From Emcibacteraceae bacterium (lineage in GTDB: Bacteria; Pseudomonadota; Alphaproteobacteria; Sphingomonadales; Emcibacteraceae), in the NCBI GenBank assembly GCA_028281625.1, contig JANQJN010000143.1, positions 1-49,098 of the forward strand: a DNA stretch of 49,098 nt, written 5' to 3'. This document shows, piece by piece, positions 35,091 through 46,808 of this stretch; the stretch's first letter is position 1, and each line of letters starts with the position of its first letter. Made by a program: the position numbers and the translations under genes. Under the pieces are notes generated by a model that was given only the letters and a program-made list of their open reading frames with translations, had not been told where the DNA came from and searched no databases.

Positions 35091-35237
35091 TTATTTTTTG
35101 CCCGTGACCATTTTATAGACCAGATGGCCGACAATAATAACAGCGGCTATACCTGCGAAAACGGGTAGAAGATCCCAGGAAACACCTTGCAGTGTTTCCT
35201 GACCATACATATCGCGAGTGTAGCGTAATATTTCCAT
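35091..35237 (-). CDS. 48-residue single-helix membrane protein at the end of the molybdenum hydroxylase operon
   Basis: This gene is below usual size cut-offs. From ATG 35237 it encodes MEILRYTRDMYGQETLQGVS, then WDLLPVFAGIAAVIIVGHLV and YKMVTGKK. One membrane helix (about residues 23-42) has a short soluble N-terminus and a basic C-terminus, so N-out, C-in is expected. AGAGGATAAG precedes the start, overlapping the last codons of the FAD subunit gene, 5 bases away. It is followed by a strong terminator 20 bases past the stop. The context says it is a fourth component of the operon: a membrane anchor or cytochrome-docking peptide. There is no known family that I can name. Confidence 0.82.
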   Translation of the reverse strand: MEILRYTRDMYGQETLQGVSWDLLPVFAGIAAVIIVGHLVYKMVTGKK

Positions 35238-35242
35238 TGAAC

Positions 35243-36229
35243 TTATCCTCTGATGGCTTTCTTAACCAGATTTTCCATCAGTGGAATTTTGAAGTGGTTA
35301 TAGTTCAGCGGGCTTGCGCCACGCGCAGCAGAAGTCGCAGCAAGATTTGCTGTTTCTTCGTTTGCCGCACTGCCGCGAACAATGTCTTCCACAACGGATA
35401 GTTTTCTTGGAACACATTCCACACCGCCACAGGTGAGGCTGATGTCTTCGATCATGCCGTCTGTTACCTTCATGGCTCCAGCCATATTTACCAGTGGGAA
35501 GTCCCATGTGTTACGGTCGGCTACTTTTTCAAAGAAGAATTGAGCACCAGCCCATTTACCAGGAATTCTGATTTTGGTTAGAACGTCACCTGGCTCAAGC
35601 ACGGTCATGCGCTCAATATCAACATCAGGGCCGATGAAATAATCGGCTGCAGCAACAGTGCGCTCACCGCCAGGGCCAACGATTACCATTTCTGCTTCCA
35701 GTGTTGCGACTGCAACCGCTGTATCGGACGGTGTTACCGCCACACAGCGTGACGCACCGAACAGGCAATGCTCGCGGTTCATACCTTCCGGTGTGTCCGC
35801 ATAGCAGGTGTTACCACCCGCACGGTAGCAGTCAAGACCGGCACGGTAGTACCAGCAACGGGCGTCCTGGCTGATGTTGCCACCAAGTGTACCCACGTTT
35901 CGAATTTGCGGACTTGCAACACGGCCAGCAGCCATAGCAAGAACACCAAATTTTTCCTGGATTACAGCATTATTTTCAACGTCCGTCAGTGTTGTCATCG
36001 CACCGATTTCAACACCGCCATCGGCTGTTTCAGTTATACCGGAAAGTTCAGCAACACCGCTAAGATCAACAACTGTTGACGGGCGCTTAACACGGTCTTT
36101 AAACCAGTCAAGACTGTCCTGACCACCGGCCATCGCCCAACCACCTTCACCAGCATCGCTGAGCGCGCTGACCGCACTCGCGAGATCAGCAGGTTGGACC
36201 AGATTGAAGTTTGGCATCATATCTTTCAT
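35243..36229 (-). CDS. FAD-binding subunit of a periplasmic molybdenum hydroxylase, with extra cysteine cluster
   Basis: The 328-residue subunit has the PCMH-type FAD fold (WAMAGGQDSLDWF, IRNVGTLGGNIS) and the CO dehydrogenase FAD C-terminal domain. Between these, C125, C134, C142, C155 and C162 lie in DARCWYYRAGLDC, GNTCYAD and EHCLFGASRC. This is where 4-hydroxybenzoyl-CoA reductase and PaoB-type FAD subunits carry a 4Fe-4S cluster, so a fifth redox centre is likely (inference). It has no signal peptide, so it would be exported with the Tat subunit. GGAGGG precedes the ATG. It sits 15 bases after the Mo subunit gene. Confidence 0.9.
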   Translation of the reverse strand: MKDMMPNFNLVQPADLASAVSALSDAGEGGWAMAGGQDSLDWFKDRVKRPSTVVDLSGVAELSGITETADGGVEIGAMTTLTDVENNAVIQEKFGVLAMAAGRVASPQIRNVGTLGGNISQDARCWYYRAGLDCYRAGGNTCYADTPEGMNREHCLFGASRCVAVTPSDTAVAVATLEAEMVIVGPGGERTVAAADYFIGPDVDIERMTVLEPGDVLTKIRIPGKWAGAQFFFEKVADRNTWDFPLVNMAGAMKVTDGMIEDISLTCGGVECVPRKLSVVEDIVRGSAANEETANLAATSAARGASPLNYNHFKIPLMENLVKKAIRG

Positions 36230-36244
36230 AATCTGTGCCCTCCT

Positions 36245-38674
36245 TTATACGTTTACTTGTAGTGGTGTAAATGATTGGTCACGACCCGCAAGCGCGTTGA
36301 TGATCATGTCCGGATCCACCGGTGTACGGTTGAAGTAAGTGCCGGTCGCATCAGAAATCGCACTGAGAAGTGCGGCTGCCGCGCTACCCATGGCAGGCTC
36401 ACCGATACCCTTAACCCCAAATGGATTTTGAGGATCAGGCTGGTTCACCGCATCAGTTTCAATAACAGATGGAATATCGAGTATTGAAGGTGGCTTGGTT
36501 TGATAAAGACCAACTGTCGCACATAGTCCGTTTTGTGGATCATAGATCATGCGGTCAAGAACCGCTTCACCAATTCCCATCACGGCACCACCACGAAGCT
36601 GTTGTTGAAGTCCTTGTGGATGAAGAACGGTACCACAGTCGGCGATGTTGTTCATTTCAAGTATTTCGTATTTGCCAGTGTCCGTATCCAGTTCAATCAT
36701 GCAGAAGGATGCGGCCATACCGGCTGCACTACCTTCTTTGAAGAGCTCGTCTTTTGCTGCAGCAACAATGCCGAGGCCTTGTACATGCTGCATCGCAGAC
36801 TTGGTTACGTCGTTTAGGTTATCGGGATACTCATGACCGTCCCACTCACCGCCAAGCTCGATCGCTTTGGTGGCTGCATCCGCAAGGCTCATGGTGAGGC
36901 TTGCATCGGATGTGTTGGTTACGGCTTCATTTGCAACTTCATAGTCACCAGCTTCACCACCAAGTTCCTGTGCGGCAAGGCTCTTGAGCATTTCTCTCAT
37001 CTTAACGGCTGCCACGAAGTTAGTTCTTGTATTTGTGAAGGCGGAGTTACTTCCGAACTGTGCCAGTGTCCATGGAAGACCATGGCGGCTGTCACCGCGA
37101 AGAACCACTGTGTTTTCCCAGGCAACGCCCAGAACCTCAGCAGCGGCACGGCAGGTGCCAGCGTAGGAATAAGTACCCAGGTTACCAACACCAGAGTGAA
37201 CATAAAGCTTGCCGTCTGGACGAATTGAAATCAGACCGTCAAATCCGTTGGAACCAGCTGAGTGATAAGCAGAGCCAACACCGATACCGATGACTTTGGA
37301 TCCGTTGCGCTGACCACTTAGTGCTTTCTTTTCTTCCCAGTTGAACTTTTCAGCGCCCAGATTGTAGGCTTCTTTCAGGTACATACTGGTCACTGTGCTG
37401 TTACGGTTTGAGAAGACAACGTCTGCTTCCGGTGAGTTAAGATCACGAATTGCAAGACGGTCAATGCCAAGTTCCTTGGCAGCGCGGTCCATCAAAGGCT
37501 CAACCACAGTTGCAAGCTGGTTCTGACCAGGGCCACGCTGTGAAACGTGCCATGGCTTGTTGGTTACGACCGCAGCACCGCGGAAACGCATGTGGGTTGG
37601 TGTATAAACAAGCGCTAGTGCACCAGCAGCAGATGAATAGTCGCCCGAACCGCGGTTTGGGCCACCTGATTGCACGATATACAGATCAGCAGCGGTCATT
37701 TTACCATTGGCGTCAAAGCCCAGTTTAACCTGACCCTGGAAGCCTGGACGTGTACCACCGAGGTGATATTCTTCGGCACGGGTTACACGGATCATGACCG
37801 GTCGATTGATTTTCTGTGCCATGTAAGCAGTCATACCCTGAATTGGGTATGGTGACGCTTTAGCACCAAATCCACCACCGCAATATTCAGCGATATAGAC
37901 GATGTCATCCAGAGAAACCTGCATCATGCGGGCCAGACCTGGCATCATCCATGATTGTGACTGTGAGGAGCCATGGATGAAACATTTACCATTTTCCCAA
38001 TATGCGAGCGTACTGCGTGGCTCAAGTGCAGCATGGCTGGAACTTGCGGTTACAAATGGCTCGTCAATGACAAGGGCTGCTTCTTCGAACGCTGCATCCA
38101 CATCACCAACTGACCATTCAACAGGCGCATCACCCATTGGCAGTCTGTCTTCACCAGCTTCAGCAAACACGCGAGCATCCCACTTGGCAGTGTGAATTGG
38201 CGCATTGTCAGGGCCACCACCGGTTACGTTTCCACTTTCAAGCGCGTTTGGACCGCCTGGATATAGGCTCTCCAACGGATCAAGCACGAATGGTTGAGGC
38301 TCATAAGTTACATTTATTCTTTCCAAAGCCTCACAAGCAATGGCTTCTGTTTCAGCAGCGATCGCGCAGATTGGCATACCAAGCTGGCGTGGCTTCATTG
38401 TCAGCATTGGATAACCTGGCTCATCCGTTGGTGGTACGTCGTCCGCTGTCAGAATGCCGATTACACCTGGCATCGCCAGCGCTTCCGAAGCATCAAGATT
38501 TGTTACATTTGCGCTTGGCATCGGGCAAAGCAGCATTTTCATATAGCACATACCTTCTTTCTTGAAGTCTTCGGCATATTTGCCTGTGCCCATGACTTTT
38601 GGTTGCACGTCCTGTGGGACGAAGTCTTTACCAACCAAATTCATTTCTTTTCCGATTAGATATTCGTCAGACAT
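36245..38674 (-). CDS. Molybdenum cofactor-binding subunit of a xanthine dehydrogenase-family enzyme
   Basis: The 809-residue large subunit shows AEYCGGGFGAKASPYPI (Mo-cofactor contact), HVSQRGPGQNQ (substrate-site region) and FGVKGIGEPAMGS, whose E759 is the base that activates water in the family. The enzyme would hydroxylate an aldehyde or aromatic heterocycle using water. The substrate is not predictable from these motifs. No signal peptide is present. The gene starts 2 bases after the 2Fe-2S subunit stop. It carries no N-terminal fusion and its length is normal for single-subunit large chains. Confidence 0.94.
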   Translation of the reverse strand: MSDEYLIGKEMNLVGKDFVPQDVQPKVMGTGKYAEDFKKEGMCYMKMLLCPMPSANVTNLDASEALAMPGVIGILTADDVPPTDEPGYPMLTMKPRQLGMPICAIAAETEAIACEALERINVTYEPQPFVLDPLESLYPGGPNALESGNVTGGGPDNAPIHTAKWDARVFAEAGEDRLPMGDAPVEWSVGDVDAAFEEAALVIDEPFVTASSSHAALEPRSTLAYWENGKCFIHGSSQSQSWMMPGLARMMQVSLDDIVYIAEYCGGGFGAKASPYPIQGMTAYMAQKINRPVMIRVTRAEEYHLGGTRPGFQGQVKLGFDANGKMTAADLYIVQSGGPNRGSGDYSSAAGALALVYTPTHMRFRGAAVVTNKPWHVSQRGPGQNQLATVVEPLMDRAAKELGIDRLAIRDLNSPEADVVFSNRNSTVTSMYLKEAYNLGAEKFNWEEKKALSGQRNGSKVIGIGVGSAYHSAGSNGFDGLISIRPDGKLYVHSGVGNLGTYSYAGTCRAAAEVLGVAWENTVVLRGDSRHGLPWTLAQFGSNSAFTNTRTNFVAAVKMREMLKSLAAQELGGEAGDYEVANEAVTNTSDASLTMSLADAATKAIELGGEWDGHEYPDNLNDVTKSAMQHVQGLGIVAAAKDELFKEGSAAGMAASFCMIELDTDTGKYEILEMNNIADCGTVLHPQGLQQQLRGGAVMGIGEAVLDRMIYDPQNGLCATVGLYQTKPPSILDIPSVIETDAVNQPDPQNPFGVKGIGEPAMGSAAAALLSAISDATGTYFNRTPVDPDMIINALAGRDQSFTPLQVNV

Positions 38675-38676
38675 GA

Positions 38677-39318
38677 TTATGCACTCCCCGCTGCTTTAAC
38701 GATTGCACTTACATAGTTGTTGTAAGCACCACAGCGACAAAGGTTACCGGCAAGAGCCTGGCGCACTTCCTCGCGACTTGGGTTTGGATTACGCTGCAGA
38801 AGCGCAACACCGGAAACCACCTGACCTGGCGTACAATAACCACATTGAGGAGCAAGCTCTTCGATCATCGCAGTTTGAACCGGGTGAAGTTCACCGTTTG
38901 CCCCGCCGACACCTTCCACAGTTACAACATTCGCTGAACGAACAGTATGTGTGAGGATGGAGCAGCTGTTCACAGTTGTACCATCGACCATCACCGTACA
39001 GGCACCACAGGAGCCGCGGTCACAACCTAGCTTTGTTCCCGTGAGCCCAAGCTTGTTGCGAAGGGTATGTGAAAGTGTTTCGTTAGGCATAACGTCAACA
39101 TTACGCGACATGCCGTTTACATTGATTGAAATCAACCTCTCTGCCGATCCGGCAGGAGCTGATCCGCCATCGCCGTCACCAGAACAGCCGGTCATTAGAC
39201 CAGCCGCACCGGCCACAGTACCGCAGGCAACTACGCCTTTGATGAAATGACGTCTTGAAACATCATCCCGTGCTGTGCCCTGTGGGTCGTAGCGATCTGA
39301 ACTGAATTTTTTTTGCAT
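38677..39318 (-). CDS. Tat-exported 2Fe-2S subunit of the molybdenum hydroxylase, lipoprotein-like
   Basis: The 213-residue subunit carries eight cluster cysteines: C99, C104, C107 and C119 (plant-type ferredoxin) and C159, C162, C194 and C196 (the second 2Fe-2S). Ahead of them lies SRRHFIKG, a perfect Tat motif, followed by AAGLMTGC with a possible lipid-modified C45. Membrane-tethered periplasmic location is thus probable, and the Mo and FAD subunits would be carried along as in PaoABC. ATG 39318 is chosen over an upstream in-frame GTG because GGAGGAG has a good spacer only to it. First gene of the operon, behind the divergent promoter region. Confidence 0.94.
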   Translation of the reverse strand: MQKKFSSDRYDPQGTARDDVSRRHFIKGVVACGTVAGAAGLMTGCSGDGDGGSAPAGSAERLISINVNGMSRNVDVMPNETLSHTLRNKLGLTGTKLGCDRGSCGACTVMVDGTTVNSCSILTHTVRSANVVTVEGVGGANGELHPVQTAMIEELAPQCGYCTPGQVVSGVALLQRNPNPSREEVRQALAGNLCRCGAYNNYVSAIVKAAGSA

Positions 39319-39395
39319 TAAATTTTGCTCCTCCACTTAAAAAAATTCTTACATTTTGTTGCAACATATTCAAAAGACATAAAAAAATGTCCGAA

Positions 39396-39440
39396 TAACC
39401 TCCCGTCCGCTAAATATCCCGATTAGCGATCATGAGGTTA
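39396..39440. promoter_or_regulatory. 45-base nested inverted repeat in the divergent promoter
   Basis: TAACCTC (39396-39402) matches GAGGTTA (39434-39440), and inside it GCTAA (39409-39413) matches TTAGC (39423-39427). The spacers on both sides are 6 bases and the central one is 9, so the whole is exactly symmetric. It lies in the 290-base region between the 2Fe-2S subunit start and the cytochrome b start. It looks like a compound operator for a dimeric or tetrameric regulator; the regulator itself is not in the window. Confidence 0.7.
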
Positions 39441-39497
39441 CAATTACGATGTTTTCATATCTCTTGAATATTTTTGTATTTTTTCTTGAGATATTTT

Positions 39498-39518
39498 TTG
39501 CCTCCCGTTATGAGGTAA
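39498..39518. promoter_or_regulatory. Second CCTC/GAGG palindrome in the divergent promoter
   Basis: TTGCCTC (39498-39504) and GAGGTAA (39512-39518) flank a 7-base centre. The heptamers are one-base variants of the arms of the 39396-39440 repeat, and CCTCCCGT occurs in both sites. ATAACGGGA at 39560-39568 is the reverse complement of TCCCGTTAT at 39503-39511. Confidence 0.6.
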
Positions 39519-39583
39519 TGTAACTATATAACTATGAGTCTAGTAAGTCTAGATGCAAAATAACGGGACAAGACGAAAAAAGG

Positions 39584-39597
39584 CGCTAACTTTAGCG
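39584..39597. promoter_or_regulatory. CGCTAA/TTAGCG hairpin just before the cytochrome b start
   Basis: CGCTAA (39584-39589) and TTAGCG (39592-39597) form a perfect stem of 6 bp with a 2-base centre, ending 11 bases before the ATG of the cytochrome b gene. The same arms occur inside the 39396-39440 repeat. It may be an operator half-site pair or an RNA hairpin masking the start; the gene has no good Shine-Dalgarno. Confidence 0.55.
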
Positions 39598-39608
39598 AAT
39601 AAACACTT

Positions 39609-40214
39609 ATGGAAGAAAATGAAAATCATGTTGTACGGCACAGCCTGGTCAGCCGTATTTTTCACTGGTTAATGGCAATTTGTATTCTTACACTTTTGGC
39701 CACAGGACTGCTACCAGTGCTGGGTGCGAATTTTGAATGGGTGGAGCCCCATTGGATCGCTGGTGTAGCGCTCACAATTGCGGTTCTTATTCACCTGATC
39801 AGGTCTTTAAGTCCCCGGAAATTGAAGTCAATGTGGATCTCAGTTTCAGATGTAAATGAGTTTATTGCCGGTGGCGGTCATGTGCGCGGCGGTAAATACT
39901 CACTTGAACAAAAACTGATGCATCACGGAATTACCCTTTTCAGCCTGGTATCACTCGTTACAGGATGGATTATGCTTCTTAAAATCGATACACCTTTCTG
40001 GGAGAGGGATCCCTTTATATATAGTGCTGACACCTGGGGTGTGATTTATGTGCTTCACGGTCTTTCGACCTTGCTTTTTGTGTCATCCATAATGCTGCAT
40101 ATTTATTTCTCGCTACGACCGGAAAAGTCACATTACTTAAGGTCGATGTTCAAAGGTTGGCTGACACGCGAAGAATATAATGAAAATCATGACCCGGATC
40201 GCTGGGCGAAATAA
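39609..40214 (+). CDS. Di-haem cytochrome b (formate dehydrogenase gamma/cytochrome b561-like)
   Basis: The 201-residue protein has four predicted membrane helices. Haem-ligand candidates are H19 (FHWLMA), H48 and H62 (EPHWIAGVALTIAVLIHLIR), H150 (VLHGLS) and H164 (MLHIYF). GGKYSLEQKLMHHGI recalls the K-Y-N-x-x-Q-K motif of formate dehydrogenase gamma, as does the C-terminal GWLTREEYNENHDPDRW. It passes electrons between a periplasmic enzyme and the quinone pool. Divergence from the molybdenum hydroxylase operon suggests that is its donor. No strong Shine-Dalgarno is visible. Confidence 0.9.
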   Translation: MEENENHVVRHSLVSRIFHWLMAICILTLLATGLLPVLGANFEWVEPHWIAGVALTIAVLIHLIRSLSPRKLKSMWISVSDVNEFIAGGGHVRGGKYSLEQKLMHHGITLFSLVSLVTGWIMLLKIDTPFWERDPFIYSADTWGVIYVLHGLSTLLFVSSIMLHIYFSLRPEKSHYLRSMFKGWLTREEYNENHDPDRWAK

Positions 40215-40237
40215 TCTGAAAACCGAAAGAATAATTT

Positions 40238-40660
40238 ATGAGCGAAGAGAATAAGGAAAAGTTACGTGCGTCCATTAACGCCGTAGAAGCAGGATACGAA
40301 TTTATGCTTGCCTATGCGGCTCAAGGCTGGGACGTGGAAAAAGTCGGTGGCGGCGGTGGTCCCTCCATCAGGGGCTATCTTGAAGATATGATAGCCGGGC
40401 TTGAGACGCTTGCCGATGATTTTGAAGCGGTTATTGCCGAAGAAGAAAGTGCAGATAAGGAGCTTTTCCGTGCATATAACGACGTGCTGCGCGTAGACGC
40501 TGAAAAAACACATACGGCGATTTCACTGATTATGTCCTTGCCATCTATCGGTTCGCAAATGGTTGATAATATTAATGCATCAATCCATGTTCGCGCGCTG
40601 CTTACGGATATATTTGTTCTCGACGAAGCGATCATATCGCTTTCAAAAAAAACGAACTAA
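40238..40660 (+). CDS. Small all-helical protein of unknown family, cotranscribed with cytochrome b
   Basis: The 140-residue protein has no signal peptide and looks like a four- or five-helix bundle, with one glycine-rich break (VEKVGGGGGPSIRGYLEDMI). The segment INAVEAGYEFMLAYAAQG is the most distinctive part. There are no cysteines, and its histidines (HTAISL, HVRALL) do not form an obvious metal site. It lies 23 bases after cytochrome b. It may be a maturation or assembly factor for the divergent molybdenum hydroxylase or a regulator of its export. I cannot name the family. Confidence 0.7.
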   Translation: MSEENKEKLRASINAVEAGYEFMLAYAAQGWDVEKVGGGGGPSIRGYLEDMIAGLETLADDFEAVIAEEESADKELFRAYNDVLRVDAEKTHTAISLIMSLPSIGSQMVDNINASIHVRALLTDIFVLDEAIISLSKKTN

Positions 40661-40717
40661 TTGCTGCCGTATTTTGCTGCTTATATCGACCTGACCTTAA
40701 TAATAATTGGAATAAGT

Positions 40718-42031
40718 ATGAATATAGCCGGTTTGCTTAAGAAAATTGGAGTTGGTCTTGCGGCAGGTGTTTTAGGTGTAATGCCCGCATTTGCCCAGCA
40801 AGACCTTAGCGAAGATCAATTGTTTCAGCAATTCCAAGCGATGGTTATTGTTGAGGAAGCCAACCAGCATTGTCCGCTTCTTTCCCGCCTCGAAGCTGAA
40901 GTGCTTCGTGGGCAGATTGTGTTTGCTAAAGATACATTTGCTGGCCAACTGGATATGGTGGAAAAGTTTAAGAAAGAAGCAAGAATTTTCTCAAGAAGAT
41001 CCTCCTGTAATTCACCAGATATTCTAGGCCTGGTGGGGCTCGCCAGACAGGCTGCTTACGATTATATGATCAATCATTTGCTGCTCGCACGTCAAATCAA
41101 CGTGCTTGATCGCGCTGACCGTTCAGCAGGGACCATACCAAGCGGACTATTGCTTGATTTTATCACTGACGAAGAGTGGACGATGATCGACGAACTCCGT
41201 GAAGAAGTGAAGGCAAACTATCTATCGCAGGCCAGCGAAGAAGCCTGGCATAAATTTGTAACGTCTATTGAAGATGTTGCGGGTGACCGGTCAGCGAAAC
41301 TTTATCTGGAAAATCAAGCTATTTTGGAAATGGATAGTTCCGAAAATTTTCAAACTGCACAAGCAATGGCGAGAAACCGAGAAATAACCACATATTATTA
41401 TCACCTTGATCGCACTGTACGCGCGTTTTTAAGTGGTGCGACCGCAGACGAAAGGAATTATCCTTACAGCAGAGCAGCCAATGATTTTACGGATTGGATT
41501 TCGTACCGACCAAAGGATGGAACAACAAATTGGGTGATATCTTATCCAGGCTGTGCGGGATTTGATCTCTCTTCAGAATGTACGCTCTTTACCACAGTAA
41601 ACGGTGAACTTGGTGTTGTTGTGGGTGATCAAGTGCAGGATGTGACACTAGAATACAGAAATCCCGGCAATGAAACATTAAGAACGGCCAATAAGACCGT
41701 CGAAGGCCCGATCGGCAGCAATATGCTTCATGAAGCCAATATGAATTCCAATCTTGAAGCGATGCTCGCTTCTGCAGATAAGGTTCTAATAAACGCCACA
41801 CCGCGATTGAACACAGAACCATATGCAGCGCAGACCGGAGAAGAAGCATCGGCGAATGCCAAGGTGTTTATTTTTCCGGAAGGAACGTTGGCTCAGATAG
41901 AAGAGCTTGGAAGGAATGATGTTATTTATTTGTCGGTTGATACTCTGGCTGAAGAGGGCAATAATAAAAGTACTGTGATTCCGGTTCATAATTATCACAG
42001 GGCAAAGAACTGGGCTTACTCTGTTCAATGA
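40718..42031 (+). CDS. Secreted protein of unknown function, 437 residues
   Basis: ATG 40718 follows TTGGAATAAG and starts a Sec signal peptide (MNIAGLLKKIGVGLAAGVLG, near AFAQQ). An upstream in-frame start would disrupt it. The first half is helical (FQAMVIVEEANQHCPLLSRL) and resembles a small repeat of helices with one cysteine pair (CPLL, RSSCNSPD). The second half is beta-rich (SYPGCAGFDLSSECTLFTTV, VGDQVQDVTLEYR) with another Cys pair. No catalytic motif is evident. It follows the cytochrome b and helical genes by 57 bases and may belong to the same transcript. Confidence 0.65.
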   Translation: MNIAGLLKKIGVGLAAGVLGVMPAFAQQDLSEDQLFQQFQAMVIVEEANQHCPLLSRLEAEVLRGQIVFAKDTFAGQLDMVEKFKKEARIFSRRSSCNSPDILGLVGLARQAAYDYMINHLLLARQINVLDRADRSAGTIPSGLLLDFITDEEWTMIDELREEVKANYLSQASEEAWHKFVTSIEDVAGDRSAKLYLENQAILEMDSSENFQTAQAMARNREITTYYYHLDRTVRAFLSGATADERNYPYSRAANDFTDWISYRPKDGTTNWVISYPGCAGFDLSSECTLFTTVNGELGVVVGDQVQDVTLEYRNPGNETLRTANKTVEGPIGSNMLHEANMNSNLEAMLASADKVLINATPRLNTEPYAAQTGEEASANAKVFIFPEGTLAQIEELGRNDVIYLSVDTLAEEGNNKSTVIPVHNYHRAKNWAYSVQ

Positions 42032-43814: not shown

Positions 43815-44357
43815 CTAGCCGTCATTTGTGACGTCATTATGAAGCAAGAGTGCGATGCGCGCCATTCTTTTCATACTTATTACGGAAAGTGTTGAACCTG
43901 AAATCCCATTAATAGGTTTATCAAGTGAATTATTGTGGGTGATAGCAGCACCGTAATATTGCGCGCGGTGCACTCGACTTTGTACTTCGTGGCCGCGTGT
44001 TTCGCGGTAAGTAAGCACGCTGATATCGAGAATTTTACCGTCTTCTACCACAACACCTGCGGTGATTGGCATGGTGCGTGCGACGCTGTCAAGCACCCAT
44101 AAAGTTCTGTTGTCCTCACGCCAATAGCGGTATCGAACCGGTGTGCTTTCAGCATTGTTTATCACTTCATTGATGTTATCGCGAAGATCGCCGATCACCC
44201 ACACAGTGGCTTTTTTGGGGGTATCACCATTAAAAAAGCTTTTAACATAATCACTGGTTTTTACGAACACACGGTCCGCTGGTTTATAGGTACCCTGCGC
44301 CGAAGCGGAAAGGGTACCCAAAATGATAAACGCAGTGATTATGCCAAATAGTCTCAT
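43815..44357 (-). CDS. Secreted FMN-binding-domain protein, substrate of ApbE flavinylation
   Basis: The 180-residue protein has a Sec signal peptide (MRLFGIITAFIILGTLSASA, near QG). The FMN_bind motif is PINGISGSTLSV with T156 as the likely covalent flavin site. The usual form has S-G-A-T, so here alanine is serine. It follows the coiled-coil porin gene by 11 bases and is therefore in its operon. The divergent ApbE encoded 1.5 kb away is the flavin transferase that would modify it. The group is a periplasmic or surface redox system. Confidence 0.85.
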   Translation of the reverse strand: MRLFGIITAFIILGTLSASAQGTYKPADRVFVKTSDYVKSFFNGDTPKKATVWVIGDLRDNINEVINNAESTPVRYRYWREDNRTLWVLDSVARTMPITAGVVVEDGKILDISVLTYRETRGHEVQSRVHRAQYYGAAITHNNSLDKPINGISGSTLSVISMKRMARIALLLHNDVTNDG

Positions 44358-44368
44358 AATGCTCTTTC

Positions 44369-45676
44369 TTAGAACTGAACACCAACCCCAAGGTTGACGC
44401 GGTTATCTTCTTTTGTCTCGTCAGCATAATCATCAATCTGATAATCAGCCTTAAGCGCCACATTTTCATGAGGCCAGTAATTTACCCCAAAAGCCGTTTG
44501 CTTGTATGCTGACAGGATATCGTCGCCGGCATTATTATCAAAAGAACTGTAGCGAGTAAAGAAGCCAATTGCATGACCATTTGCAAACTTATATTTGTAG
44601 GATGGTTCGATGAACCAACCGCGCTGAACATCGCGGCCGATCAGTTCCGCTTCCATGCTGTTCAGGTTCCATTGTGCATAAAGCGCGCGCAGGCCGAACT
44701 CACTGGTTGAATTGATTTGGCGCTGAATATTCGCATGGCCTTCAAACAGGGTGGCCGATGTTGGTACAACAGACTGCGTTAGATCATCCTGATATTGGAA
44801 AGAGGCGGCAAGGTTGACACCCGCAATTGGCATCCAGCTGAGGCGGCCGGTAAAAGCTGTGTTTTTCCACGATGCCTCGGCCACTTTTTGTCGTCCACTT
44901 CGGATAAGGAATGCGTTACCGCCTTCTGTCGGGGTTTTAAGGCCCGAGTGAACCATAGCATCATATCGAAGGGTGTCGCCAATTTTGCCGCTCAGTTTAA
45001 CACCTGCTTCCCACCACGTGGTTGGCAGGATGTTTTTTTCCACGTCATTGCGTTCTACTCCATAAAATGTTGGTGGCTCGTGAGTTTCATTAAGCATACC
45101 GACTGGCACAAGTTGAAGACCAATGGATGTGCTCGTATTGTCGTTTAGGTCGTATTCAATGAAGGCCTGTTCCAGTTCCACTTCACCGGGCTTGCCGTCA
45201 CCTGCGAGGGAATGTTCAAGTTCAAGTTCGCTGAAGAAACGGACGCGGTCGCTAAATTCCTGACCAAAGTATAAAACAAAGCGGTGATAATCGATCTGAT
45301 CCTTTTTGCCGCCATTAAAATGAAGTTCGCCGTAGCCACCAATTTTTGTTTTTCCAAAGGTTGGCTCACTGGAAGCGCTTCCACCCTGTTCTATGGTTTC
45401 CACTGCAGCTTCAACAATCATGCCGGTTTCTTGAACCTGCTCCTGGGTTTCGGCTACTTGTTCCCGGGTCTCAGCCACCTGTTCCTGGGTTTCCGTGACG
45501 GCCTGCTCAGTCATACCAAGTTTTTCTTCAAGTCTGCTGATTTGTTCCTGCTGCTGCAGAATGATCTTCCACATTTCTTCTGCAGAAGGCATTTCCTGCG
45601 CAAATGAAGGTGACGCAGACAAACACATAGAGAGCGCCAAAAGTGAGCTTGCAGACTTTAGAGATTTGATTTTCAT
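44369..45676 (-). CDS. Outer-membrane porin-like beta-barrel with an N-terminal coiled coil
   Basis: The 435-residue precursor starts at ATG 45676 (GAAATGGA upstream) with a Sec signal peptide (MKIKSLKSASSLLALSMCLS, near SFAQ). A coiled coil follows with near-repeats such as TQEQVAETREQVAETQEQVQ at about residues 50-70. After a short linker comes a beta-barrel of alternating strands (FVLYFGQEFSDRVRFFSELE) ending in GVGVQF, with the terminal phenylalanine. It is the first gene of the operon with the FMN-binding protein. It may give solute or electron access to that protein. Confidence 0.82.
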   Translation of the reverse strand: MKIKSLKSASSLLALSMCLSASPSFAQEMPSAEEMWKIILQQQEQISRLEEKLGMTEQAVTETQEQVAETREQVAETQEQVQETGMIVEAAVETIEQGGSASSEPTFGKTKIGGYGELHFNGGKKDQIDYHRFVLYFGQEFSDRVRFFSELELEHSLAGDGKPGEVELEQAFIEYDLNDNTSTSIGLQLVPVGMLNETHEPPTFYGVERNDVEKNILPTTWWEAGVKLSGKIGDTLRYDAMVHSGLKTPTEGGNAFLIRSGRQKVAEASWKNTAFTGRLSWMPIAGVNLAASFQYQDDLTQSVVPTSATLFEGHANIQRQINSTSEFGLRALYAQWNLNSMEAELIGRDVQRGWFIEPSYKYKFANGHAIGFFTRYSSFDNNAGDDILSAYKQTAFGVNYWPHENVALKADYQIDDYADETKEDNRVNLGVGVQF

Positions 45677-45725
45677 TTTAATTCCATTTCTCAATTGAAT
45701 ATGATTTACTTTAATTGTAATTTTC

Positions 45726-45740
45726 TAAGAACGATTCTTA
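45726..45740. promoter_or_regulatory. Palindrome TAAGAA/TTCTTA between the divergent porin and ApbE genes
   Basis: TAAGAA (45726-45731) and TTCTTA (45735-45740) are exact inverted copies around CGA. The site lies in the 148-base divergent region. Its form recalls AT-rich dyads bound by Fur-superfamily regulators such as Irr, which would fit an iron- or redox-linked module; this is only a resemblance. Confidence 0.5.
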
Positions 45741-45824
45741 ATAACTGCGCTATTAATAATTATTATTAAAAACGACGCAAGCTAAAAATACGGCATTTTG
45801 AAACTTTTTTTGTGATCAAATTTT

Positions 45825-46808
45825 ATGAATTTAAAAAGACGTAAATTATTGAAAATTTTGGGTGTTTCAGCAGGCGCTATGGCGTGGCCACTATCCGCAG
45901 AATACCGCCAAAATCTGCAGCTATTCCGCTGGGAAGGTTACGCGCTTGGGGCAGATACGGAGATCCAGCTTTATGCAAGTAATAAGTCGGATGTAGAGGA
46001 TACTATTAGCTACGTAACTGAACTGATCGCCAAACTTGAAGGCATTTTTAGTCTTTATGATCCTGAGTCGGAAATTAACATGTTAAATAGCATCGGTGCT
46101 TTGGAGGCTGCATCCGCTGACATGATCGAGCTGATTAACATTTCAAAATCATTCAGCGTGAAAACAAATGGTGCTTTTGATGTAACGGTGCAGCCACTTT
46201 GGGAACTCTATGACCGGTATAGGGATGATGGCGATCAGTTGGCCTTCGATCGCGATTTAAAAGACATCGTTCCCTTGATCGGATCAGACAAAATTAAAAT
46301 CGATGACCGTAAAGTTACCTTCTTTGAAGAAGGTATGGCCATCAGCTTCAATGGTATCGCACAAGGCTATATTACCGATAAGGCAGTCGCTCTTTTGAAG
46401 GAAAATGGATTTACAAATACCCTCGTCGATGTGGGTGAATATTCAGCCGGTGGTCCGCAATGGGGTGGGGATCCCTGGCGCATTGGGCTACTTGATCCAT
46501 TTGATCAGATTTCGGTTGCTGACGTTTTGGAGTTAAATGGGGGTGGGCTCGCCACGTCCGGAGGGTACGGGACCGTATTTGCAGATGATGGCAGCAAGCA
46601 CCACTTGTTTAATCCAATCACGGGTCTTAGCGCGAACCAATATGCATCAGTGACTGTGACCGCGAACAATGCGACGACCGCTGATGCCCTTTCCACGGCG
46701 TTCTCAAATATGTCCTCAGAAGCAATCAAAGAATATGTGAAACGTCATCCTGACTTGCGCGTCAGATTGACGCATTACAATGGCGAAGTTGCCCGTATCT
46801 CCCCTTAA
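45825..46808 (+). CDS. apbE: FAD:protein FMN transferase ApbE, Tat-signal form
   Basis: The 327-residue enzyme attaches FMN to a threonine in FMN_bind domains. The N-terminus LKRRKLLKILGVSAGAM is Tat-like. Core signatures are FSLYDPESEINMLN, GAFDVTVQPLWELYD, ISFNGIAQGYITDKAV and HHLFNPITGLSA. The Mg/FAD region GGGLATSGGYGTVF is intact. The partner FMN_bind protein is encoded in the divergent operon. ApbE acts in the periplasm, which fits the signal. No strong Shine-Dalgarno is seen before the ATG. Confidence 0.94.
   Translation: MNLKRRKLLKILGVSAGAMAWPLSAEYRQNLQLFRWEGYALGADTEIQLYASNKSDVEDTISYVTELIAKLEGIFSLYDPESEINMLNSIGALEAASADMIELINISKSFSVKTNGAFDVTVQPLWELYDRYRDDGDQLAFDRDLKDIVPLIGSDKIKIDDRKVTFFEEGMAISFNGIAQGYITDKAVALLKENGFTNTLVDVGEYSAGGPQWGGDPWRIGLLDPFDQISVADVLELNGGGLATSGGYGTVFADDGSKHHLFNPITGLSANQYASVTVTANNATTADALSTAFSNMSSEAIKEYVKRHPDLRVRLTHYNGEVARISP

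Follow-up and report, generated by a model that had tools for sequence, protein, structure and literature searches.

The window analysed here is a stretch of 49,098 nucleotides from a 3.9-Mb draft genome of an Emcibacteraceae bacterium (GenBank assembly GCA_028281625.1, contig JANQJN010000143.1). At positions 35,091 to 40,660 it carries two divergent operons, which together encode six proteins: the FeS (2 x [2Fe-2S]), molybdenum-binding (Mo) and flavin adenine dinucleotide (FAD) subunits of an enzyme of the xanthine oxidase family, a 48-amino-acid (aa) membrane protein (p48), a cytochrome b of the FdnI type and a 140-aa helical protein (p140). We propose, with a probability of roughly 0.8, that these six proteins form a membrane-bound, periplasm-facing dehydrogenase wired through the cytochrome to quinone. 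The observations behind this proposal are the gene content and co-occurrence of the module, the fusion of p48 to the cytochrome, a twin-arginine translocation (Tat) motif in the FeS subunit, the histidine pattern of the cytochrome and the structural model of p140. The six-gene kit is common to bacteria of several phyla, and p48 and p140 are two so far unnamed protein families added to a well studied enzyme class.

Distribution of the six-gene module

Single-sequence searches of 147 genomes of the order identified p140 in 12 of the 13 genomes of the genus (the window's own included) and in none of the rest, while the cytochrome was found in the same 12 genomes, with two weak matches elsewhere. 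The only genome of the genus without the cytochrome and p140 (G113) is 53% complete. In all 12 genomes the two genes are adjacent to each other and stand beside the FeS gene, and p48 follows the FAD gene in all 10 loci with a sufficiently long contig, the window among them; the contigs of the other two end within the Mo gene. The recurrence of the cytochrome, p140 and FeS genes across the genus indicates that the arrangement is beyond chance. Several of the closest loci bear Kordiimonadaceae or Emcibacteraceae titles. The search of the order suggested that p140 is restricted to the genus, an idea that was overturned by profile searches of Mo loci, which revealed p140 in several phyla.

For these searches the best 80 of 398 relatives identified with an alignment of the Mo subunit in genomes of named species were taken, and profiles of the six proteins were run on their loci. 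All six genes are present at 33 of the 80 loci, 8 contain a partial set (some of these are cut by contig ends), 22 possess the FeS, Mo and FAD genes only and 17 the Mo gene only. The titles of loci with the set include Alphaproteobacteria, Gammaproteobacteria and Latescibacterota, among others. A frequent arrangement is FeS-Mo-FAD-p48-cytochrome-p140 on one strand; the layout in two divergent operons is seen in the window and in other loci. The cytochrome and p140 genes are adjacent and on the same strand in 36 of 36 pairs, 14 of which overlap by 4 bp.

Whole-genome searches revealed p140 elsewhere in the genome in 21 of the 22 genomes of the FeS-Mo-FAD-only group and in 16 of the 17 genomes with a lone Mo gene (G534 is counted in both groups; four of the 17 are from the window's genus, and L110 comes from the same isolate as L099). 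A cytochrome of the module type lies beside p140 at 37 of 39 fetched loci, the other two (L144 and L162) being partial p140 matches only. Among the 21 FeS-Mo-FAD-only genomes with p140 elsewhere, 20 have it beside a fused p48-cytochrome gene and the remaining one beside separate genes. Thus, loci without a cytochrome are mostly not exceptions at the level of the genome, and the idea that FeS-Mo-FAD loci lacking a cytochrome use another acceptor was rejected, as all but one of the 22 genomes carry p140 and p48-cytochrome genes elsewhere.

Among 385 evenly sampled genomes of the class (Mo E <= 1e-60, with the top two candidates scored per genome; cytochrome E <= 1e-10), the Mo subfamily was detected in five genomes and the cytochrome in four, all of them among those five (Fisher p 5.5e-9, a value that ignores kinship: two of the four share a genus, and the query genome is among the four). 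Across the phylum, an even sample of 398 genomes showed p140 solely in the window's own genome. A plasmid collection yielded no match to p140, and with the Mo subunit it yielded only distant enzymes (~28% identity among the matches listed). The preliminary description of this DNA had envisaged a membrane-wired oxidation system with the small proteins as new components, which would gain from constant co-occurrence with the Mo subunit and the cytochrome and suffer if the cytochrome and small proteins were found mostly without the Mo hydroxylase. The neighbourhood survey it suggested speaks for this system: no cytochrome was found outside the Mo genomes in the class sample, the cytochrome accompanies p140 at nearly all fetched loci, and 25 p48-cytochrome fusions tie one of the small proteins to the membrane subunit.

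One full module (L092) is titled Klebsiella pneumoniae; in the trees its Mo subunit groups with that of L105 (an uncultured gammaproteobacterium), and its cytochrome is close to those of L105 and the Kordiimonadaceae. This entry is probably a mislabelled bin.

The cytochrome and the two small proteins

The nearest NCBIfam model to the cytochrome is formate dehydrogenase gamma (TIGR01583, E 1e-13), with a score of 51.7 bits that lies below the cut-off of 115.85; together with the Pfam assignment (Table 1), this agrees with the formate dehydrogenase gamma type named in the preliminary description. FdnI is the sole match among PDB sequences up to E 1 (E 5e-4), and the alignment places H19, H48, H150 and H164 of the module cytochrome on H18, H57, H155 and H169 of FdnI, which we take to be the haem ligands. 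From this register we predict H19/H164 as the ligand pair of haem bC and H48/H150 as that of haem bP. When a model of a natural p48-cytochrome fusion (L102; predicted local distance difference test score, pLDDT, 77) was compared by Foldseek, FdnI alone matched with E <= 0.001 (1.4e-5).

All 42 cytochromes compared, 41 separate ones and L102, share seven invariant histidines, and so do 25 of 25 fused proteins (L102 and 24 others); L163 and L165, being one gene, are counted once. The four ligand histidines recur in 29/29 further PF01292 proteins of organisms related to that of the window (a comparison from which the module cytochrome L192 was kept apart), and H105 in 19 of them, whereas H11 and H62 occur in 0/29, position 62 being Arg in 26/29. 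The candidacy of His62, in the second transmembrane helix, as an FdnI-type ligand was rejected, as FdnI H57 aligns with H48 and not with H62. H11, H62 and H105 are predicted to lie on the cytoplasmic side of the cytochrome.

The cytochrome open reading frame (ORF) begins with p48 in 25 distinct genes, namely L102 and 24 genes of the second set. On a tree of 73 cytochromes (L128-L131, L136 and L163 were left out as repeats or truncated), fused and separate forms are distributed such that at least three changes are required, two of them forced by well supported branches; the root of this tree is not known, so that the changes may be fusions or splits, and L102 forms a long branch. All 43 p48 sequences aligned (42 separate ones plus the p48 portion of L102) share Gly12, Gly18 and His38, and the 24 other fused proteins also retain the histidine (24/24). 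Of the separate proteins, alignment A10 includes 12 of 38 cytochromes and 15 of 38 p48 rows, with the p48 of L064, which contains an unknown residue, left out. On account of the fusion to the cytochrome N-terminus and the invariant membrane histidine, p48 is a real subunit of the cytochrome, and we predict that it serves as its fifth helix.

Hydropathy places His38 near the end of the single p48 helix. The N-terminus of FdnI faces the cytoplasm, and p48 runs straight into the corresponding end of the module cytochrome, so by this analogy His38 should lie in the cytoplasmic half of the membrane and the conserved N-terminal stretch of p48 should be periplasmic. Since H11 and H62 are absent from all 29 cytochromes outside the module, these two residues and His38 of p48 travel together. 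It is conceivable, albeit rather doubtful, that p48 and its partner make up a new five-helix cytochrome, in which His38, H62 and H11 bind a third haem or make up a novel quinone site toward the cytoplasm, and which acts as a universal socket for exchangeable periplasmic Mo subunits encoded in separate aromatic-catabolism clusters. No Pfam family, NapE/TorE included, scored above its curated cut-off with the p48 of the window or with seven other separate p48 sequences; the p48 and p140 of the window gave Pfam noise only (E 0.05-0.19) and nothing better than noise with NCBIfam.

The AlphaFold2 model of p140 is a helical bundle of four long helices and a short one (pLDDT 91.4), and no segment of p140 reaches the hydropathy threshold for a membrane helix. 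The motifs YEfMLAYAAQG and SSQ-DN-NAS-HLRALLTD-F--DEA are shared by 37 diverse p140 sequences. A Foldseek search with the model found nothing better than E 0.035 (generic bundles), and the best match among PDB sequences (E 0.0016) is, by its name, a coiled-coil design. Assignment of p140 to a known chaperone was tried and rejected: there is no Pfam match, and NCBIfam gave three matches, each to a single p140 member (E 0.002-0.009). Its initial description as an unnamed helical protein therefore stands.

None of the 37 p140 members has any Pfam match, XdhC_CoxI included, while each of the 13 genomes of the genus has one XdhC_CoxI match on another contig or far from the locus. The presence of this gene elsewhere argues that p140 is not XdhC but more likely an extra assembly or export factor, and one genome (G429) that keeps p140 with the FeS, Mo and FAD genes, and in which no cytochrome or p48 was found, links p140 with the enzyme and not with the cytochrome. 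We consider p140 probably a cytoplasmic assembly factor. It is also possible, at somewhat less than even odds, that p140 is instead a structural or regulatory subunit on the cytoplasmic face of the cytochrome, as could be expected from the tight linkage of the two genes, the lack of a strongly hydrophobic segment in p140 and the predicted cytoplasmic-side location of the invariant H11, H62 and H105; G429 argues against this role.

Enzyme subunits, proposed electron path and probable substrates

The FeS subunit scores above the cut-off of the general Tat signal model TIGR01409 (21.1 vs 16.7 bits; the Pfam Tat signal is sub-threshold), and a Tat motif was found in its N-terminus at 59 of 60 loci, hence we predict its export by the Tat pathway. 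The preliminary description called this subunit "Tat-lipoprotein-like" and made its case depend on export. The Tat part of that label holds, whereas not all members have the lipobox-like cysteine: Cys51 is shared by 12 of 12 genus sequences, and such a cysteine was found at 40 of the 60 loci, including 3 of 12 with Gemmatimonadota titles and 0 of 4 with Acidobacteria titles, by a loose pattern that in some cases matches before the true site and in others misses the cysteine. The uneven occurrence suggests that lipid anchoring is not a fixed feature. The Mo subunit has no hydrophobic signal-like segment of its own.

The features of the xanthine oxidase family are all present (Ald_Xan_dh_C and MoCoBD domains, a 2 x [2Fe-2S] subunit and an FAD subunit), and E759 of the Mo subunit, invariant in 11/11 sequences, lies in a GxGEP motif whose Glu is presumably the conserved catalytic Glu of the family. 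The best PDB match of the Mo subunit is the alpha subunit of 4-hydroxybenzoyl-CoA reductase (4-HBCR, 1rm6), and in NCBIfam the models for 4-HBCR alpha and beta come nearest to the Mo and FAD subunits, both far below cut-off. In the FAD subunit C125, C142, C155 and C162 are invariant (10/10); three of them are in register with the insert of 4-HBCR beta and one is displaced by about two residues. The insert in FAD subunits of the 4-HBCR type presumably provides the ligands of a [4Fe-4S] cluster, and the FAD subunit of the module probably carries such a cluster too.

As this cysteine insert is shared with a reductase, reversed flow has to be considered, in which quinol would feed the cytochrome and then a reductive Mo enzyme, as in 4-HBCR. 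The PDB and NCBIfam matches listed above point the same way, but in the PDB the FAD subunit is matched best by the medium subunit of an aldehyde oxidase (5y6q_B) with cysteines at aligned places, the export signal of the FeS subunit leads to a compartment where one would not expect CoA thioesters, and quinol is too weak a donor for reductions of the 4-HBCR type. Reversed flow thus seems unlikely.

The direction of electron flow, the quinone acceptor, the topology, the substrate class and the role of p140 form the interpretive part of the proposed dehydrogenase. The FeS subunit would take the folded Mo and FAD subunits out through the Tat pathway, and the substrate, probably an aromatic aldehyde or a heteroaromatic compound, would be oxidised with water at Mo. 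Electrons could then pass through the two [2Fe-2S] clusters and the FAD subunit with its putative [4Fe-4S] cluster to the FdnI-type cytochrome b, where they would cross the membrane from haem bP to haem bC and reduce quinone near the cytoplasmic face; it is the likeness to FdnI that leads us to suggest flow towards quinone. As the fifth helix, with its N-terminal stretch directed toward the enzyme, p48 would be the functional counterpart of the C-terminal FeS-subunit helix of formate dehydrogenase N. p140 would stay in the cytoplasm and aid assembly or export proofreading, and Mo subunits encoded elsewhere may use the same membrane module.

It could be argued that the cytochrome passes its electrons to a partner other than quinone, given that H11 and H62 set it apart from FdnI and other PF01292 proteins; the match of its fold to FdnI and the lack of a CXXCH motif in the ORFs listed around three loci make this improbable. 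That the plus operon encodes an independent cytochrome b561-type system, for instance a superoxide oxidase, that stands next to the Mo operon by coincidence or through shared regulation, would fit the divergent operons of the window and the presence of CybB (5oc0) among the Foldseek matches (E 0.21 only), but is very hard to reconcile with the colinear run of all six genes elsewhere, the 25 fusions of the cytochrome to p48, whose gene lies beside FAD in the window, and the near-complete Mo-cytochrome co-occurrence in the class sample.

Several observations weigh against the quinone-linked six-protein dehydrogenase. The clearest case against a fixed set is G429, which has FeS, Mo, FAD and p140 genes, no p48 or cytochrome adjacent to them and no cytochrome match in the genome at the threshold used; this implies that the cytochrome is not always needed, or that another acceptor can serve. 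The module locus L060, which is not cut by a contig end, lacks p140, though p140 is present elsewhere in its genome. Genome-wide searches found no p140 in G538, G560 and G908 and only short partial matches in G909 and G552 (the piece in G552 lies at a contig end). The p48 part of the L102 fusion model is weak (pLDDT 53-71), and we found no biochemistry for any member of the group.

Lone Mo genes are scattered over the Mo FastTree tree, with at least four changes forced by supported branches, and their surroundings provide hints about substrates. The window genome itself contains a second Mo subunit of this subfamily (L018, G000:C122, 5725-8127), 61% identical to the first and without adjacent FeS or FAD genes. 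Its cluster includes a LigB-type ring-opening dioxygenase, three RraA-like proteins, a flavin reductase, a sulfatase and a protein of the iron-dependent alcohol dehydrogenase family, which we read as a maleylacetate reductase. Near other lone Mo loci we found HpaB (L097), an FAA hydrolase with a double-cupin protein read as a gentisate-type dioxygenase (L074), and an amidohydrolase (L094). Eight Mo loci from several groups have LigB in their vicinity, and module loci with Rhodospirillaceae titles have a Rieske dioxygenase nearby. Judging from these neighbours, the substrates are probably aromatic (an aromatic aldehyde or a heteroaromatic compound), and the location of lone Mo subunits near aromatic-catabolism genes suggests that they are exchangeable catalytic subunits sharing one membrane module. 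At L070 (88-4798) and L086 (5933-11679) one FeS gene lies between two Mo genes (the second one of L070 is in two pieces), an arrangement that looks as though a single electron-transfer partner served two catalytic subunits.

Gene layout of the window and comparison with known systems

All six ORFs that the preliminary description assigned to the minus operon (p48, FAD, Mo and FeS subunits) and to the start of the plus operon (cytochrome and p140) are present as it described them (Table 1), except that its 48-residue membrane peptide and its one-helix protein are one and the same ORF.

Table 1. Features of the module locus and its immediate surroundings in the window
Feature	Coordinates	Strand	Basis and remarks
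p48, 48-aa single-helix membrane protein	35091..35237	-	ORF listing, hydropathy
FAD subunit	35243..36229	-	Pfam FAD_binding_5/CO_deh_flav_C; cysteine-rich insert
Mo-binding catalytic subunit, xanthine oxidase family	36245..38674	-	Pfam Ald_Xan_dh_C + MoCoBD_1/2
2 x [2Fe-2S] subunit	38677..39336	-	Fer2/Fer2_2; Tat motif SRRHFIK; lipobox-like ...MTGC
Intergenic region between divergent operons	39337..39608	.	several imperfect inverted repeats within 39363-39568
FdnI-type di-haem cytochrome b	39609..40214	+	Ni_hydr_CYTB (PF01292), E 1e-19
p140, predicted cytoplasmic four-helix bundle, unnamed family	40238..40660	+	AlphaFold2, motif conservation
p456, 456 aa, signal-like N-terminus, likely ATG 40718	40661..42031	+	conserved in genus

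The inverted repeats between the divergent operons are possibly regulator sites. p456 belongs to the plus operon at 12 of 12 genus loci (one of them ended by a contig edge), has no Pfam match and was not seen as part of the wider module, hence we consider it accessory at most; in the window it is followed by an alpha/beta hydrolase gene. Beside the module, positions 43815-46808 encode an FMN_bind-domain protein, a porin-like protein and an ApbE flavin transferase (the porin likeness and an SGST-like motif at the C-terminus of the FMN_bind protein were judged by eye), and among 11 fetched genus loci FMN_bind is a neighbour in 8, ApbE in 8 and the porin in 6. This neighbourhood suggests a second exported flavin electron-transfer system. 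At 250-2654 a GMC-like flavoprotein is followed by a small Tat-type protein, a pair that resembles gluconate-2-dehydrogenase; judged by eye only, it is a candidate for a further exported dehydrogenase.

Among known systems, 4-HBCR shares the cysteine insert and provides the best PDB match of the Mo subunit and the second best of the FAD subunit (1rm6); this enzyme is cytoplasmic and reductive and is not known to have a cytochrome b. The aldehyde dehydrogenase 8gy3, presumably a membrane-wired enzyme of acetic acid bacteria with a c-type cytochrome subunit, has a large subunit of the xanthine oxidase family, but the module differs from it in possessing an FdnI-type cytochrome b, p48 and p140. 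Formate dehydrogenase N of E. coli (FdnGHI) is an exported Mo enzyme wired to quinone, in which FdnH has its own anchoring helix. Its cytochrome b corresponds to that of the module in fold and in the register of the four histidines, whereas its catalytic subunit comes from another Mo family; the module also has p48, separate or fused to the cytochrome, and the additional invariant H11, H62 and H105. TorE/NapE is a small one-helix membrane protein that accompanies the respiratory cytochrome of a periplasmic reductase system (PMC6134056); p48 differs from it in its frequent fusion to the cytochrome, its invariant membrane histidine and the lack of a Pfam match above cut-off. No description of a complex like the one proposed here was found in the open-licence literature, covered mostly as titles and abstract openings, and a review of Mo enzymes, in the excerpts available, describes three-subunit enzymes of the family and mentions no cytochrome b for them (PMC7759655).

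The closest parallel among exported enzymes is PaoABC of E. coli, which likewise belongs to the xanthine oxidase family and has three subunits, the 2Fe-2S one being exported. The PaoA model matches the N-terminal region of the module FeS subunit as well, and the FAD subunits match over most of their length. The equivalog cut-offs are missed by a wide margin (258.8 vs 1180 bits for PaoC, 151.6 vs 322 bits for PaoA), thus the module enzyme is a relative of PaoABC and not a member of its family. According to the excerpts available of a 2014 paper, PaoABC prefers aromatic aldehydes, and its terminal acceptor had not been identified at that time (PMC3958847). PaoABC requires PaoD, an XdhC-type chaperone encoded in its own operon, and the paoABCD operon, as described in the excerpted source (PMC2997495), contains no cytochrome b, p48 or p140, in agreement with the initial remark that PaoABC lacks a dedicated cytochrome b and a small anchor. 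The module would give relatives of PaoABC a dedicated route into respiration, with p48 marked by the gene fusions as a subunit of the cytochrome, and it points to a way in which little-known bacteria from several phyla could gain energy from extracytoplasmic aromatic matter.

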